Made by a program: the position numbers and the translations under genes | Shown: positions 12,378-17,091 of the stretch, piece after piece | How positions within the stretch are numbered: the first letter of the stretch is position 1 | Layout: the number at the start of each line of letters is the position of its first letter | Notes under the pieces: model-generated | What the model was told of the DNA's origin: nothing | The model's database searches: none | What the model saw: the letters and a program-made list of their open reading frames with translations, nothing else | Virus record (IMG/VR): IMGVR_UViG_3300035086_000081 | Coordinates: 1-20,666 of that record | Source of the DNA: a virus | DNA length: 20,666 nucleotides | Strand: one strand, 5' to 3'

Positions 12378-12427
12378 GGCGTGGCCTGGCCTGGCAAGGC
12401 AAGGCGAGGCAAGGCAGGGCAGGGCAG
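12378..12427 (+). repeat. GGCNN pentanucleotide tract A (10 units)
   Basis: Ten consecutive GGCNN units fill most of the gap before recT. The last ones are GGCAA and GGCAG, and the tract runs into GGGTTTTTTAAAAAC and then the recT ribosome site (GGAGAG). The first of six such filled junctions in this operon. Confidence 0.9.
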
Positions 12428-12457
12428 GGTTTTTTAAAAACGCTCGGAGAGTAAACG

Positions 12458-13636
12458 ATGAACACACAACAAGTCACCACCGCTCCGCAAGGTCCGAAGG
12501 CCGTTATCGAACAGTTTCGGCGCGATCTGGAAAAGATGGGACCGCAATTCGCGTATGCGCTGCCGGCGCATATTCCGTTAGAGCGGTTTAATAGATGTAT
12601 CATGACGGCACTCCAAAATTCGCCGTCGCTTTTTAAGTGTACGAGGCAATCGCTTTTCAATGCAGCGATGAAAGCCGCCGCTGACGGCCTGCTGCCGGAC
12701 GGCAGAGAAGGCGCTATCGTTCCGTTTTCCGAAAACGAGGACGGCCGCAAGAGCGGCGATCAGGCCGCTTGGATGCCAATGGTTGCCGGCATCCGCAAGA
12801 AGGCGCGCAACAGCGGAGAGCTATCCGATCTGTATGCACATGTCGTGCACGAGGGCGACGCCTTCGAATATCAACTCGGCGACGATCCGCACATTCACCA
12901 CCGGCCGTCGTTGCGTGGTGGGCGCGGGCGCAAGATCATCGCGGCCTATTCGATTGCCGTCTTCAAGGACGGCACCAAGGCTTACGAAATTATGTCAATC
13001 GAGGAGATCGAGGACATCCGCAAGCGCTATTCGAAATCGAAGAGAGGCCCATGGAGTGATCCGATCGCTTACCCGGAAATGTGCCGCAAAACCGTGGTGC
13101 GCTTGCACTGCAAGTCATTGCCGATGTCAACCGACCTCGATGACGTGGTTAGACGGGATGATGAATTGTATGATCTCAAAGGCGCGGCCGAGCGCGGCAA
13201 GCAGGTGACGAAGCGCCAGCCCGCCAGCGCGATGGCGGCGCTTGAGAAGTGGGCCGGCAGCAGCACTAGCGATAGCGAAGGCGATCCGCCGCCGCCGAGC
13301 GCAGACGACCCGGGCGACCCGCAGCCGGGCGACGACACCGTGATCGAGCACGACGCCGACACCGGCGAGGCGTCGCGGGCCGATCCCGAGTTGACCGTCG
13401 GCGCCCTGATCGGCATGGCGCAGAAACAGCCGCCGAAAGACCCCGAGGTTTTTCGGATGTTGACGCGCCAGATCATCGAGGCCGCAAAACGGTCCGGCGG
13501 AAAAGCCAGTGGCGATATGCTCGCATGGTGGTCCGGGCCGAACGCGCGGAGCCTGCGTAATGCCGCAGGAATGACGGCCGATGATACTGCTGCGTTGTCA
13601 GCGGAAGTTAAAGCCGCGTTTGATGAGATGAATTAG
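12458..13636 (+). CDS. recT: RecT single-strand annealing protein
   Basis: The 392-aa protein carries the RecT domain at about residues 12-235. Visible features are FRRDLEKMGPQFAYALPAHI, LFKCTRQSLFNAAMKAAADG, WMPMVAGIRKKARNSGELSD, AHVVHEGDAFEYQLGDDPHI and YPEMCRKTVVRLHCKSLPMS. RecT anneals complementary single strands and works with the YqaJ-type exonuclease encoded two genes upstream. The C-terminal 150 residues are extra. They hold a Pro/Asp-rich acidic linker (GDPPPPSADDPGDPQPGDD) and a small helical end (about 330-392) with no family I can name. Start: ATG 12458 with GGAGAG upstream. Confidence 0.92.
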   Translation: MNTQQVTTAPQGPKAVIEQFRRDLEKMGPQFAYALPAHIPLERFNRCIMTALQNSPSLFKCTRQSLFNAAMKAAADGLLPDGREGAIVPFSENEDGRKSGDQAAWMPMVAGIRKKARNSGELSDLYAHVVHEGDAFEYQLGDDPHIHHRPSLRGGRGRKIIAAYSIAVFKDGTKAYEIMSIEEIEDIRKRYSKSKRGPWSDPIAYPEMCRKTVVRLHCKSLPMSTDLDDVVRRDDELYDLKGAAERGKQVTKRQPASAMAALEKWAGSSTSDSEGDPPPPSADDPGDPQPGDDTVIEHDADTGEASRADPELTVGALIGMAQKQPPKDPEVFRMLTRQIIEAAKRSGGKASGDMLAWWSGPNARSLRNAAGMTADDTAALSAEVKAAFDEMN

Positions 13637-13651
13637 GTGGATTTTGATTAC

Positions 13652-13814
13652 GGCGGGGCCTGGCACGGCGCGGCATGGCAAGGCGTGGCCCGGCGTGGCG
13701 AGGCAGGGATACTTTTGTGGATTGCATGAGTTGCGGCGCGGCGGGGCACGGCGAGGCAAGGCATGGCGAGGCCAGGCGAGGCGTGGCGAGGCAGGGCAGG
13801 GCAAGGCAAGGCAG
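13652..13814 (+). repeat. GGCNN tracts B1 (11 units) and B2 (16 units)
   Basis: B1 covers 13652-13706 and B2 13735-13814. They are separated by a 28-base linker starting GGATACTTTTGTGGATT. A related GTGGATTTTGATTAC precedes B1. B2 runs into GGTCTTAAACAAGGGAG and the next gene's ribosome site. Confidence 0.92.
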
Positions 13815-13839
13815 GGTCTTAAACAAGGGAGAGCACAGC

Positions 13840-14481
13840 ATGTTGGATAAAACGACGACGAAACCAAAAGCGAAAGTTTCCATACCGGCGGCGTCAGAAC
13901 CCGCACTTGGGCCAGCGACGCCAACGATCCGCACAATTCAGATCACCATCGATGGCATCAAACCGCTGCTCACTCATAACCCGGAATCCATGGGCGGCGA
14001 TACGAGCGCCAAGCGCGGCACGAGAATCCCCGAGGCCGAAGTAGAAGCCGAGAACGGCGTCTATCGCCTTCCGGATGGCACCTGCGCAATCAAGGGCGAA
14101 GCCTTTCGCGCCTCGCTGCTTGGCGCCGCCAGTGCCTGGAAGGCCAAGCGTTCGACCATGAAGAGCCACCTGGCCCACGTTGTGGTGGCCGAAGAATTGA
14201 TCCCTCTACAGCGTCGCGATGGCTCGCCGATCAAGGATTATGTGATCGACAGCAGACGCGCGATTGTACAGCGCCAGGGCATCATTCGACGCCGACCGCG
14301 TTTCGATGAGTGGTCCGCGACCTTTCGAGTTGAATTTGATCCGGTGCTGATCAAAACCCCGGAGATCATCGCCGAAATCATGGGCGACGCCGGCAACCGC
14401 ATGGGCGTCGGCGATTATCGGCCACAAAAAAACGGGCCGTTTGGCCGCTTCGCGGTGAGATCGTTCACAGTCGAGGATTGA
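13840..14481 (+). CDS. Conserved-looking phage protein of unknown function (213 aa)
   Basis: The ATG at 13840 has AAGGGAGAG upstream; the frame is open earlier only because the GGCNN tract lacks stops. The product is 213 aa. After a Lys/Pro-rich tail it shows IRTIQITIDGIKPLLTHNP, PDGTCAIKGEAFRASLLGAA, RRAIVQRQGIIRRRPRFDEW, FRVEFDPVLIKTPEIIAEIM and GNRMGVGDYRPQKNGPFGRF. I have seen this layout in phage proteins encoded near recombination genes, ending in a 'G-x-G-D-x-R-P...G-x-F' signature, but know no assigned function. The alternating beta strands and Gly-rich end recall RRM-like folds such as Cas7/RAMP proteins; that is a guess. It likely binds nucleic acid. Confidence 0.75.
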   Translation: MLDKTTTKPKAKVSIPAASEPALGPATPTIRTIQITIDGIKPLLTHNPESMGGDTSAKRGTRIPEAEVEAENGVYRLPDGTCAIKGEAFRASLLGAASAWKAKRSTMKSHLAHVVVAEELIPLQRRDGSPIKDYVIDSRRAIVQRQGIIRRRPRFDEWSATFRVEFDPVLIKTPEIIAEIMGDAGNRMGVGDYRPQKNGPFGRFAVRSFTVED

Positions 14482-14486
14482 GATGC

Positions 14487-14754
14487 GGCGTGGCACGGCC
14501 TGGCGAGGCGCGGCCAGGCGAGGCATGGCGGGGCCTGGCCGGGCGAGGCAAGGCAGGGATACTTTGTCGATTGCAGTTACGGCGCGGCGAGGCCCGGCGC
14601 GGCGCGGCAAGGCGTGGCGGGGCGGGGCGAGGCATGGCAGGGCTGTTTTGGCAATTTCCAATGGGGCTGGGCGCGGCTGGGCGAGGCAGGGCGCGGCTTG
14701 GCCTGGCGTGGCGTGGCGGGGCCTGGCCGGGCGAGGCAAGGCGGGGCAGGGCAG
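14487..14754 (+). repeat. GGCNN tracts C1 (14), C2 (12) and C3 (18 units)
   Basis: This is the largest block: 14487-14556, 14581-14640 and 14665-14754. Two 24-base linkers separate them; the first begins GGATACTTTGTCGATTGC and the second GGCTGTTTTGGCAATTTC. C3 runs into GGTTTTGACTAAGGAGG, which is the ribosome site of the ParB-like gene. Confidence 0.92.
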
Positions 14755-14776
14755 GGTTTTGACTAAGGAGGAACCG

Positions 14777-15439
14777 ATGAAACTAGCGATCGGCGAAATA
14801 GTATTCGACGAGACTATGTATCCAAGAAATGGCGTATCCGAATTCAACATTCAGCGGCTTGCGCTTGCCGGCGAGGCTGGCGCCAAGTTTCCTCCACTCG
14901 TTGTGGAAGTAAAGACGCACCGTCTCGTCGATGGGCGCCACCGTTTGGAAGTTTACCGGCGCAAGGGCATAACAAAGGTCGATGTCATCGAGAAAAAGTA
15001 TGCCAGCGACGCCGACATGTTCGCCGACGCTGTTAGGTTAAATATCGGCCACGGCACGCCGCTTGATCAATATACGATCCGTCATTCGGTGCTTCGATTG
15101 GAGCAGTATGGCTATACGCGCGAGCAGATTGCCGAGGTGGTTCGTCTGCCTCTCGAAAGGATTGAGAAGATCGAGCGCGGCTTTGCCAACGCGCCAGACG
15201 GCCATCCGATCGCACTCAAAGGCGGCCTGAGCCACCTACACGGCGAAACGCTCAACACAGAACAACAAGCGCTCAATCGCAGATACAGCGGCGGCAAGGC
15301 GACGTTTCATCTGCGTCAGCTTTGCGTGCTGATCGAGACCGATATGTGGCCGCGATCCGACGGTTTCACACATGAGATGGAAAGGCTGATTTCGCTTTGG
15401 GCGAATGTAAAGGCTCAGGCGAAATCGAGTGCGGCTTGA
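14777..15439 (+). CDS. ParB-like nuclease/Srx-domain protein
   Basis: The 220-aa protein starts at the ATG at 14777 behind an ideal TAAGGAGG. Residues about 5-85 form a ParB N-terminal-like domain: YPRNGVSEFNIQRLALAGE, PPLVVEVKTHRLVDGRHRLE (the DGRHR nucleotide-binding motif) and YRRKGITKVDVIEKKY. A helix-turn-helix-like segment follows at about 112-135 (YGYTREQIAEVVRLPLERIE). Phage proteins of this type are usually regulators or modification-related rather than partition proteins; no parA or parS is visible. It stands alone between two GGCNN blocks. Confidence 0.8.
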   Translation: MKLAIGEIVFDETMYPRNGVSEFNIQRLALAGEAGAKFPPLVVEVKTHRLVDGRHRLEVYRRKGITKVDVIEKKYASDADMFADAVRLNIGHGTPLDQYTIRHSVLRLEQYGYTREQIAEVVRLPLERIEKIERGFANAPDGHPIALKGGLSHLHGETLNTEQQALNRRYSGGKATFHLRQLCVLIETDMWPRSDGFTHEMERLISLWANVKAQAKSSAA

Positions 15440-15443
15440 GTGC

Positions 15444-15598
15444 GGCGAGGCGGGGCCAGGCCAGGCTTGGCGTGGCGCGGCGCGGCGGGGCATGGCAGGG
15501 CGAGGCATGGATACTTTGGCGATTTCCCGATGCGGCGAGGCGAGGCGCGGCATGGCGGGGCGCGGCTTGGCCTGGCCTGGCAAGGCAAGGCGAGGCAG
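15444..15598 (+). repeat. GGCNN tracts D1 (13) and D2 (13 units)
   Basis: Tracts at 15444-15508 and 15534-15598. They are separated by a linker beginning GGATACTTTGGCGATTTC. D2 is followed by GGATACTTGGATGATTTAA and then the ribosome site of the next gene. Confidence 0.92.
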
Positions 15599-15627
15599 GG
15601 ATACTTGGATGATTTAAGGGGCGGGTA

Positions 15628-15852
15628 ATGCTGAGCAAGAAATCTCACCACACGCCGGTTTTAGCTATGAGTGTCCCGGAATTTTGCCAGGCGTTCCGCA
15701 TCTCAGTGCCGTTTTACTACAAACTACGCAGACAGGGACTCGGCCCGCGCGAAATGAAATTAGGCAGTCGGGCGGTGATCTCAATGGCGGCGGCAAATGA
15801 ATGGATCACCGAGCGAGAAGGAGGTCCGAAGAATGAGCAGAAAGCGCCTTGA
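15628..15852 (+). CDS. Small AlpA/excisionase-type helix-turn-helix protein
   Basis: The 74-aa protein has the form of AlpA/MerR-like phage regulators: MSVPEFCQAFRISVPFYYKL (helix-turn-helix, about 14-33), then a wing-like LRRQGLGPREMKLGSRAVIS and a helical AAANEWITERE. Such proteins act as excisionases or transcription activators. Start ATG 15628, with GGGGCGGG upstream; the ATG of MSVPEF (15667) is an alternative. The next gene begins 20 bases before its stop, so both are made as a pair. Confidence 0.75.
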   Translation: MLSKKSHHTPVLAMSVPEFCQAFRISVPFYYKLRRQGLGPREMKLGSRAVISMAAANEWITEREGGPKNEQKAP

Positions 15853-16048
15853 AGACTCGCCACTCCCTACGGAGATCGAACTGTTGAAAATTATCAATAT
15901 CCGCCAGGCCGCCGAGCTGGCCGGCGTCAGCGTGAGAACTTTGCAAAGAGCGCACAGTGCCCGGATCATCCGCGTCAGCCCCGGCCGCCTGGGCATGCGG
16001 GTGCGCGACGCCTTGATGATCGCCGAAGGAAAGCGAGGCGCGTCATGA
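15833..16048 (+). CDS. Small helix-turn-helix DNA-binding protein
   Basis: The start ATG at 15833 is marked by a perfect GAAGGAGG 7-8 bases upstream; the open frame begins 36 bases earlier but without such a site. The 71-aa product contains NIRQAAELAGVSVRTLQRAH (about 25-44), a textbook helix-turn-helix, followed by IIRVSPGRLGMRVRDALMIA. It is probably a second regulator paired with the preceding one. Candidates for its targets are the palindromes at 10836-10999, which lack any adjacent repressor gene; this link is inference. Confidence 0.75.
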   Translation: MSRKRLEDSPLPTEIELLKIINIRQAAELAGVSVRTLQRAHSARIIRVSPGRLGMRVRDALMIAEGKRGAS

Positions 16049-16063
16049 CGGACGCAGGATTTT

Positions 16064-16213
16064 GGCGCGGCGTGGCCCGGCGCGGCATGGCACGGCGAGG
16101 CATGGCGAGGCATGGCAGGGATACTTTTGTGGATTTGGGTTGTGGCGCGGCGCGGCGGGGCGCGGCAGGGCGAGGCGTGGCGGGGCCAGGCGTGGCGGGG
16201 CAAGGCAGGGCAG
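16064..16213 (+). repeat. GGCNN tracts E1 (11) and E2 (14 units)
   Basis: Tracts at 16064-16118 and 16144-16213. The linker starts GGATACTTTTGTGGATTTG, matching the block B linker nearly base for base. E2 ends in GGATACCTTTGTCAATTTAG, then GGAGAGG as ribosome site. Confidence 0.92.
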
Positions 16214-16245
16214 GGATACCTTTGTCAATTTAGCGGAGAGGCAAC

Positions 16246-16446
16246 ATGAAAACCGAAACTGAGGTCCATCGCGACCTCAACATCATGCGGGGCATCCTCA
16301 CGCCCCTCGACGACGATAGTCGAGAGGGCATGCTCGCCGCCATTCTGCTGTGGTTTCTGACCCATCACGAGGATCGGGATACTGCGTTAGACCACCTGAT
16401 AGTCCGCATGGAAGAAATCGAAAGCGATGTAGAGCGGAAGGCGTAG
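16246..16446 (+). CDS. Small acidic protein of unknown function (66 aa)
   Basis: The product is 66 aa, acidic and helical (EVHRDLNIMRGILTPL, GMLAAILLWFLTHHEDRDTALDHLI, RMEEIESDVERK). GGAGAGG lies just upstream of the ATG. The central hydrophobic stretch is short and amphipathic, so a membrane helix is unlikely. No family is recognised. Its stop is 2 bases before the DnaA-domain gene, so the two are coexpressed. Confidence 0.65.
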   Translation: MKTETEVHRDLNIMRGILTPLDDDSREGMLAAILLWFLTHHEDRDTALDHLIVRMEEIESDVERKA

Positions 16447-16448
16447 CA

Positions 16449-16979
16449 ATGAAGGTCGCACCCGCACAAGTGCCGGATTATTCGAGCGCGGACGAAATGC
16501 TGGCGAGGTACCGGTCGATCCACTCGGCATTTTGGCGGCAGCTTATGCCTGCGCCGCCGCGGCCGCGGCCGCCCGCAGCGCTCTTGCAGCACCTTGCGCG
16601 ACCCGCTTCGCCATCGTCGCCCGCCGCACTGCCTGAGCGAATCCGCCCACCGACCGCGCCTCATGCGCCGACGTCAATGGTCGATGAGATCGTGCGGGAA
16701 ACGTGCCTGTCGTTCGGCTGCTCCAAGACCGAGCTATTTGCCCGCCGGCGCAATCTCGAGGTCGTCTACCCCCGCGGAATCGCGATGTCGCTATGCTGCA
16801 AATTGACGACGCGCAGCACAGTGGAGATCGGCCGCCGTCTCGGCGGCTTCGATCACAGCACGGTCTTGAACATCGTCCGCAAGCTGCAGCCCTATCTCGA
16901 TGCCGCCGCGGACGGAATGCCGGAGGACGCGACGGTGCATCAGTGGATCTGCTCGATGCGGTTTCATATGAACATTTGA
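16449..16979 (+). CDS. Stand-alone DnaA domain IV (DnaA-box-binding) protein
   Basis: The ATG at 16449 gives 176 aa. Residues about 78-148 match DnaA domain IV: IVRETCLSFGCSKTELFARR, NLEVVYPRGIAMSLCCKLTT, RSTVEIGRRLGGFDHSTVLN. The GGFDHST segment corresponds to the DnaA signature GGRDHTTV that reads the DnaA box. The AAA+ domain is absent; instead there is a Pro/Ala-rich disordered N-terminus (about 33-76). Proteins with only this domain occur in alphaproteobacteria and phages and probably bind DnaA boxes as competitors or regulators of replication. No adjacent ATPase gene is present. Role is inferred. Confidence 0.85.
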   Translation: MKVAPAQVPDYSSADEMLARYRSIHSAFWRQLMPAPPRPRPPAALLQHLARPASPSSPAALPERIRPPTAPHAPTSMVDEIVRETCLSFGCSKTELFARRRNLEVVYPRGIAMSLCCKLTTRSTVEIGRRLGGFDHSTVLNIVRKLQPYLDAAADGMPEDATVHQWICSMRFHMNI

Positions 16980-16986
16980 TGGATAT

Positions 16987-17066
16987 GGCCCGGCGAGGCG
17001 AGGCGCGGTACGGCCCGGCACGGCCAGGCTGGGTGTGGCCGGGCGTGGCATGGCGAGGCAAGGCAG
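16987..17066 (+). repeat. GGCNN tract F (16 units)
   Basis: Sixteen units at 16987-17066; two of them start GGT instead of GGC (near 17007 and 17032), the only deviations noticed in the whole array. It ends in GGCAGGGATATTTTGGGGAT, again the shared tail, directly before the next start codon. Confidence 0.9.
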
Positions 17067-17091
17067 GGATATTTTGGGGATTTGAAATGTC

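Follow-up and report, generated by a model that had tools for sequence, protein, structure and literature searches.

VIPR (Viral Interference Programmable Repeat) is a phage-borne cousin of CRISPR with seven types, which a preprint of 2026 was the first to describe (PMC13142463, doi 10.64898/2026.04.26.720920). It consists of a RAMP protein, Vipr, and of vrRNAs with 9–16 YNNGG repeats, hypervariable in NN, and an invariable 3′ tail; accessory genes are termed vap. The NN bases pair with double-stranded DNA, skipping one base, and rival phages are repressed by the complex (PMC13142463). In the SUSP1 clade the tail is structured, with a pseudoknot, and in SUSP1 itself one guide lies upstream and three downstream of vipr (PMC13142463).

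Here we analysed a 20,666-nucleotide stretch of a viral record (IMGVR_UViG_3300035086_000081, the window), in which eleven tracts of GGCNN units lie between genes. These tracts are almost certainly the vrRNAs of a VIPR system, an assignment made because of the homology of a neighbouring protein to SUSP1 Vipr, its predicted RAMP fold, the co-occurrence of protein and tracts, the sense direction of the tracts, and the replacement of the NN pairs in related phages whilst the tail is kept. A recently described RNA-guided system, which has been proposed to precede CRISPR, would thus extend to one more clade of phages, here with an exceptionally large set of guides, and a pattern in raw sequence leads by itself to the system.

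GGCNN tracts of the window

A preliminary description, made from the letters alone, had placed eleven tracts at six gene junctions, and both the coordinates and the junctions hold. It put the array at about 148 units, we counted 149 in register (147 exact GGC and two GGT, both in the last tract, 16987–17064), all on the + strand and with 10 to 18 units per tract. Five consecutive GGCNN units occurred 95 times (overlapping occurrences), all on the + strand, and never in 100 dinucleotide-preserving shuffles. It was also correct that all tracts have the same orientation relative to transcription, that they are absent where genes overlap, and that conservation lies in the five-base period of GGC and not in the unit, the register being kept whilst the NN pairs are free. 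The pairs use 14 of the 16 dinucleotides in the window, where TA and TC are missing as described, but this is no rule because both are found as NN in related contigs. The neighbouring genes have functions in recombination and DNA binding, and the features are as follows.

12378..12444, + strand, putative vrRNA 1: 10-unit tract (12378–12425) in sense direction, running into the recT leader AGGGTTTTTTAAAAACG, a tail of the gene-leader type
12458..13636, + strand, recT, neighbouring gene (Pfam RecT, E 2.2e-39)
13652..13724, + strand, putative vrRNA 2: 11-unit tract (13652–13704), tail AGGGATACTTTTGTGGATTG
13735..13839, + strand, putative vrRNA 3: 16-unit tract (13735–13812), running into the vipr leader AGGGTCTTAAACAAGGGAGAGCACAGC
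13840..14481, + strand, vipr, 213 aa, PHROG_4652 (E 1.6e-23), Cas7/Csm3-like RAMP protein
14487..14574, + strand, putative vrRNA 4: 14-unit tract (14487–14554), tail AGGGATACTTTGTCGATTGC
14581..14664, + strand, putative vrRNA 5: 13-unit tract (14581–14643), degenerate tail TGTTTTGGCAATTTCC
14665..14776, + strand, putative vrRNA 6: 18-unit tract (14665–14752), running into the leader of the ParB-like gene
14777..15439, + strand, ParB-like gene, 220 aa, PHROG_1033 (E 7.5e-13), candidate vap (accessory DNA-binding protein)
15444..15528, + strand, putative vrRNA 7: 13-unit tract (15444–15506), tail ATGGATACTTTGGCGATTTCC
15534..15616, + strand, putative vrRNA 8: 13-unit tract (15534–15596), tail AGGGATACTTGGATGATTT
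16064..16137, + strand, putative vrRNA 9: 11-unit tract (16064–16116), tail AGGGATACTTTTGTGGATTT
16144..16232, + strand, putative vrRNA 10: 14-unit tract (16144–16211), tail AGGGATACCTTTGTCAATTT
16987..17085, + strand, putative vrRNA 11: 16-unit tract (16987–17064; 14 GGC, two GGT), tail AGGGATATTTTGGGGATTT

Two elements are absent from the preliminary description: a tail, approximately GGCARGGATACTTTKGNSGATT, common to eight of the eleven tracts (the copy of tract 5 is degenerate), and the run-in of the remaining three tracts to gene leaders, namely those of recT, vipr and the ParB-like gene. The tail GATACTTT is accordingly missing from three tracts and degenerate in a fourth. No Rfam family, hammerhead included, matched the tract region of the window or 15 other loci. 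Elsewhere in the window, a run of 27 C is present close to the contig end (20603–20629).

Tracts in other sequences

Scanning IMG/VR with eight GGC units matched at least 120 stretches, and the recurrence at gene junctions that the preliminary description had proposed to look for was found, degenerate GGCNN tracts lying between genes and in sense direction in many viral contigs. Among the matches listed, the median relative entropy of NN was 0.79 in viral contigs, which mostly carried degenerate tracts, versus 0.23 in bacterial contigs, which mostly carried simple satellites, and the G+C content of tract-bearing contigs ranged from ~0.39 to 0.76. Genes around the tracts were called with a codon-model caller; of 385 distinct tracts among the matches listed, 282 had both flanking genes in the same direction as the tract, 10 had both in the opposite direction, and 11 lay inside genes, and we therefore regard the tracts as sense-strand, noncoding elements. 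Across all viral tracts the final one or two NN pairs were purine-rich. A BLAST search of one tract against isolate phages returned no match, perhaps owing to low-complexity filtering. In three contigs (L015:6351-6978, L042 and L080) the GGYNN arrays were very long and almost continuous, with a chain of ~98 units in L015; these are perhaps overlapping or staggered guides.

A Vipr-family protein accompanies the tracts

When all 1385 called proteins were compared with one another, a single family was prominent, with members in 85 of 121 loci, the window among them, and the next best family reached 22 (among the matches listed). Its window member is the gene at 13840–14481, amid the tracts. The family is PHROG_4652. 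Where tracts were degenerate, a profile of the family detected it in 82 of 111 viral loci (among the matches listed) and 6 of 13 bacterial ones, whereas the 107 simple-satellite loci gave no match. The tracts lay on the vipr strand in 251 cases and on the opposite strand in eight, with a median distance of 54 bases between vipr and the nearest tract.

PHROG_4652 is annotated as of unknown function, and no Pfam match was significant. A predicted model built from 76 aligned family members (pLDDT 89.7) had its best fold matches in Csm3 and other Cas7-like RAMP proteins (Foldseek E 1.5e-7, Z up to 13.2 for Csm3), and a glycine-rich loop motif, AGxxxGxGDxRPxxxGxFGRF, is conserved in the family. The family profile matched PDB chain 36pp_D, the ‘SUSP1 Vipr protein’, with an E-value of 5.5e-41, and the window protein alone matched the same chain at 4.1e-6. 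The preliminary description had offered four readings of the tracts; the sole survivor, an array for a DNA- or RNA-binding protein, came close, the protein being by homology and predicted fold an RNA-binding RAMP protein.

Relatives of the family were found in 156 and 161 records of isolate phages (two queries). GGY tracts lie directly upstream of the Vipr-family gene in Pseudomonas phage LESphi2, in mycobacteriophage Quico and in Felixounavirus ESCO50 (39% G+C), the last of which has GGT units beside GGC, whilst the same scan found no GGC tract in Listonella phage phiHSIC, where a Vipr-family protein is present. In Quico (L256:19584-19822) the blocks comprise 15, 11, 11 and 6 units, with a phase shift, GGCAGGC, between them.

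Of 21 whole viral records that carried degenerate tracts and had no Vipr in the stretch fetched, 19 had no Vipr profile match anywhere in the record (4 to 105 kb; L017, L035, L083, L099, L105, L111 and L113 are among them). Such records may be fragments, may encode a more divergent Vipr, or may carry orphan guides without a protein of their own.

Homologues of the ParB-like protein follow vipr directly in four loci including the window, overlapping it by 4 bases in one and 1 base in another, and the gene at 14777 is probably an accessory (vap) gene. Three other small gene families occupy this position behind vipr, in 21, 10 and 7 loci and often with a 4-base overlap (e.g. L011:7081-7527, L027:5699-6253 and L014:8580-9059), and are candidate vap genes.

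NN series are replaced between related phages

Three contigs are related to the window. L258, another IMG/VR record, is identical to it over 6750 bases; it may come from a related sample, and so it counts against a random assembly error and is no proof of independence. In L261 and L262 the Vipr protein is 96% identical to that of the window and the tails are as in the window at several junctions, yet the NN series are different. The vipr leader that follows tract 3 is kept in both, of identical type and preceded by different NN pairs, and the leader of the ParB-like gene is kept in L261. The ParB-like protein (94–95% identical) has stayed together with vipr, whereas recT has been replaced, sharing just 37–38% identity with that of the window; recT is apparently an interchangeable cassette outside the VIPR module. 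This comparison of NN pairs between relatives, which the preliminary description had called for, gave the pattern that would be expected of replaceable guides on a conserved scaffold, and three related phages with near-identical Vipr and different guides amount to a natural experiment on guide renewal. As far as could be tested, the tracts are due neither to chance nor to artefact. Using the DnaA-like protein as a query for further relatives returned solely the identical record, and a search for host DNA among 397 genomes from a single bacterial order gave only weak matches, the best at 64–73% identity over up to ~1.2 kb.

Sites of TRAP (MtrB) are triplets with two free bases between them, at a period of five, and regulate the protein's own leader. 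A comparable ring protein could bind GGC triplets in mRNA leaders and so control translation of genes downstream in the same phage, with NN as mere spacer, and the formal likeness to TRAP triplets as well as the sense direction of the tracts between genes would suit this. We consider it very improbable, as the co-occurring protein is a RAMP matching Vipr, several tracts stand in tandem instead of one per leader, and spacers should drift along with the protein, whereas NN is replaced wholesale at 96% protein identity.

It is about equally improbable that the tracts are chiefly linkers through which a RecT/YqaJ pair exchanges cassettes (one of the readings in the preliminary description), guide function being secondary or absent. 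The divergence of recT within a VIPR module that is otherwise kept speaks for such exchange, and so does a block of five NN common to both members in two pairs of window tracts (expected 0.03–0.05), from which we conclude that tracts may occasionally exchange segments. As the main function, however, linkage does not agree with tracts that follow the strand of vipr, with the association of the Vipr family and tracts in phages having quite different neighbours, or with variable NN pairs, which make for poor homology.

Two-tier G-quadruplexes in the transcript or DNA, another earlier suggestion and possible in principle given GG at every fifth base, are the least credible of these readings because the C that follows GG varies hardly more than GG itself, being replaced in 2984 units by T in 104, A in 31 and G in 8. 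The earlier idea of a self-spreading repeat is disfavoured because related phages keep the tail yet swap the NN pairs; a copied satellite and an assembly artefact both fit poorly.

Search for targets

For four of the eleven guides, a subpattern with 20 to 22 specified bases was sought in viral contigs as an exact match, and two of those four were also compared, allowing up to three mismatches, with the 397 genomes of the bacterial order mentioned above; neither search gave a match. All eleven guides compared with the three related phage contigs gave no excess over shuffles, and when skip lengths of 0–4 were tried for 353 guides in 2.2 Mb of DNA, no length stood out. The absence of targets says little, the search of public collections having covered four of eleven guides. 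NN frequencies (103 loci) correlated with codon positions 1–2 (r 0.65), which is in line with a skip at the wobble base but weak because a uniform distribution fits as well (−2.780 per NN for the codon model vs. −2.773, log 1/16, for the uniform).

With one skipped base, guide 11 (16987–17064) matched L261/L262 at 9 of 15 NN, within the 3′ end of their DnaA-like gene and with the skip falling on the wobble base; this gene is the orthologue of the guide's neighbour in the window (16449–16979). We do not claim the match because 5 of 400 shuffled versions scored equally high and 31 guides were tried, and it is not significant once multiple testing is allowed for.

Proposed mode of action

On the VIPR assignment, the tracts would be the repeat regions of eleven vrRNAs and the product of 13840–14481 the Vipr protein that binds them. 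Small Cas7-like subunits would form a row on the RNA, each occupying a single GGY-NN unit, gripping the fixed GGY and leaving the NN pairs turned outward. Read with one base skipped between pairs, the NN series would specify a double-stranded DNA site in a rival phage or prophage, and the complex seated there would shut off transcription. Expression of the vrRNAs, formation of the complex, the one-base skip and the repression of rivals are inferred from the published system (PMC13142463). The variable NN pairs, taken in the preliminary description as tolerated noise, are most likely the part that bears the information. Because they are distributed across six junctions within a recombination/replication operon, the guides are probably cut out of the operon transcripts or started within them.

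Comparison with known systems

The locus shares with described VIPR systems a homologous RAMP protein, GGY/NN repeats and a conserved 3′ tail, as well as tracts in the noncoding gaps around vipr and on its strand, a location in a phage and a small neighbouring DNA-binding gene. It differs in having eleven guides distributed among six junctions within a recT/ParB/DnaA-like operon, in its short tail, in the ParB-like nature of the candidate accessory gene, and in the number of units per tract, 10 to 18 compared with 9 to 16 (one tract has 18). With Class 1 CRISPR (type III Csm3/Cas7) it has in common the predicted protein fold, the glycine-rich loop and the expectation of a guide RNA on a periodic filament, whereas the window has a period of five and two informative bases per unit; no array of identical repeats and spacers appeared in the tandem-repeat results, from a tool not aimed at spaced repeats, and no other cas gene was recognised among the window genes examined. 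TRAP (MtrB) resembles it in the triplets with two free bases and period of five; its protein is a different one, and it acts on its own leader, with no guide.

VIPR itself is already known, and the novelty here is the layout and the size of the guide set. A more tentative suggestion, which we consider less likely than not, is that this clade represents a distinct VIPR layout, with many operon-embedded guides, a ParB-like partner, renewal by exchange of tract segments, and, in some phages, orphan guides that use the protein of another element.
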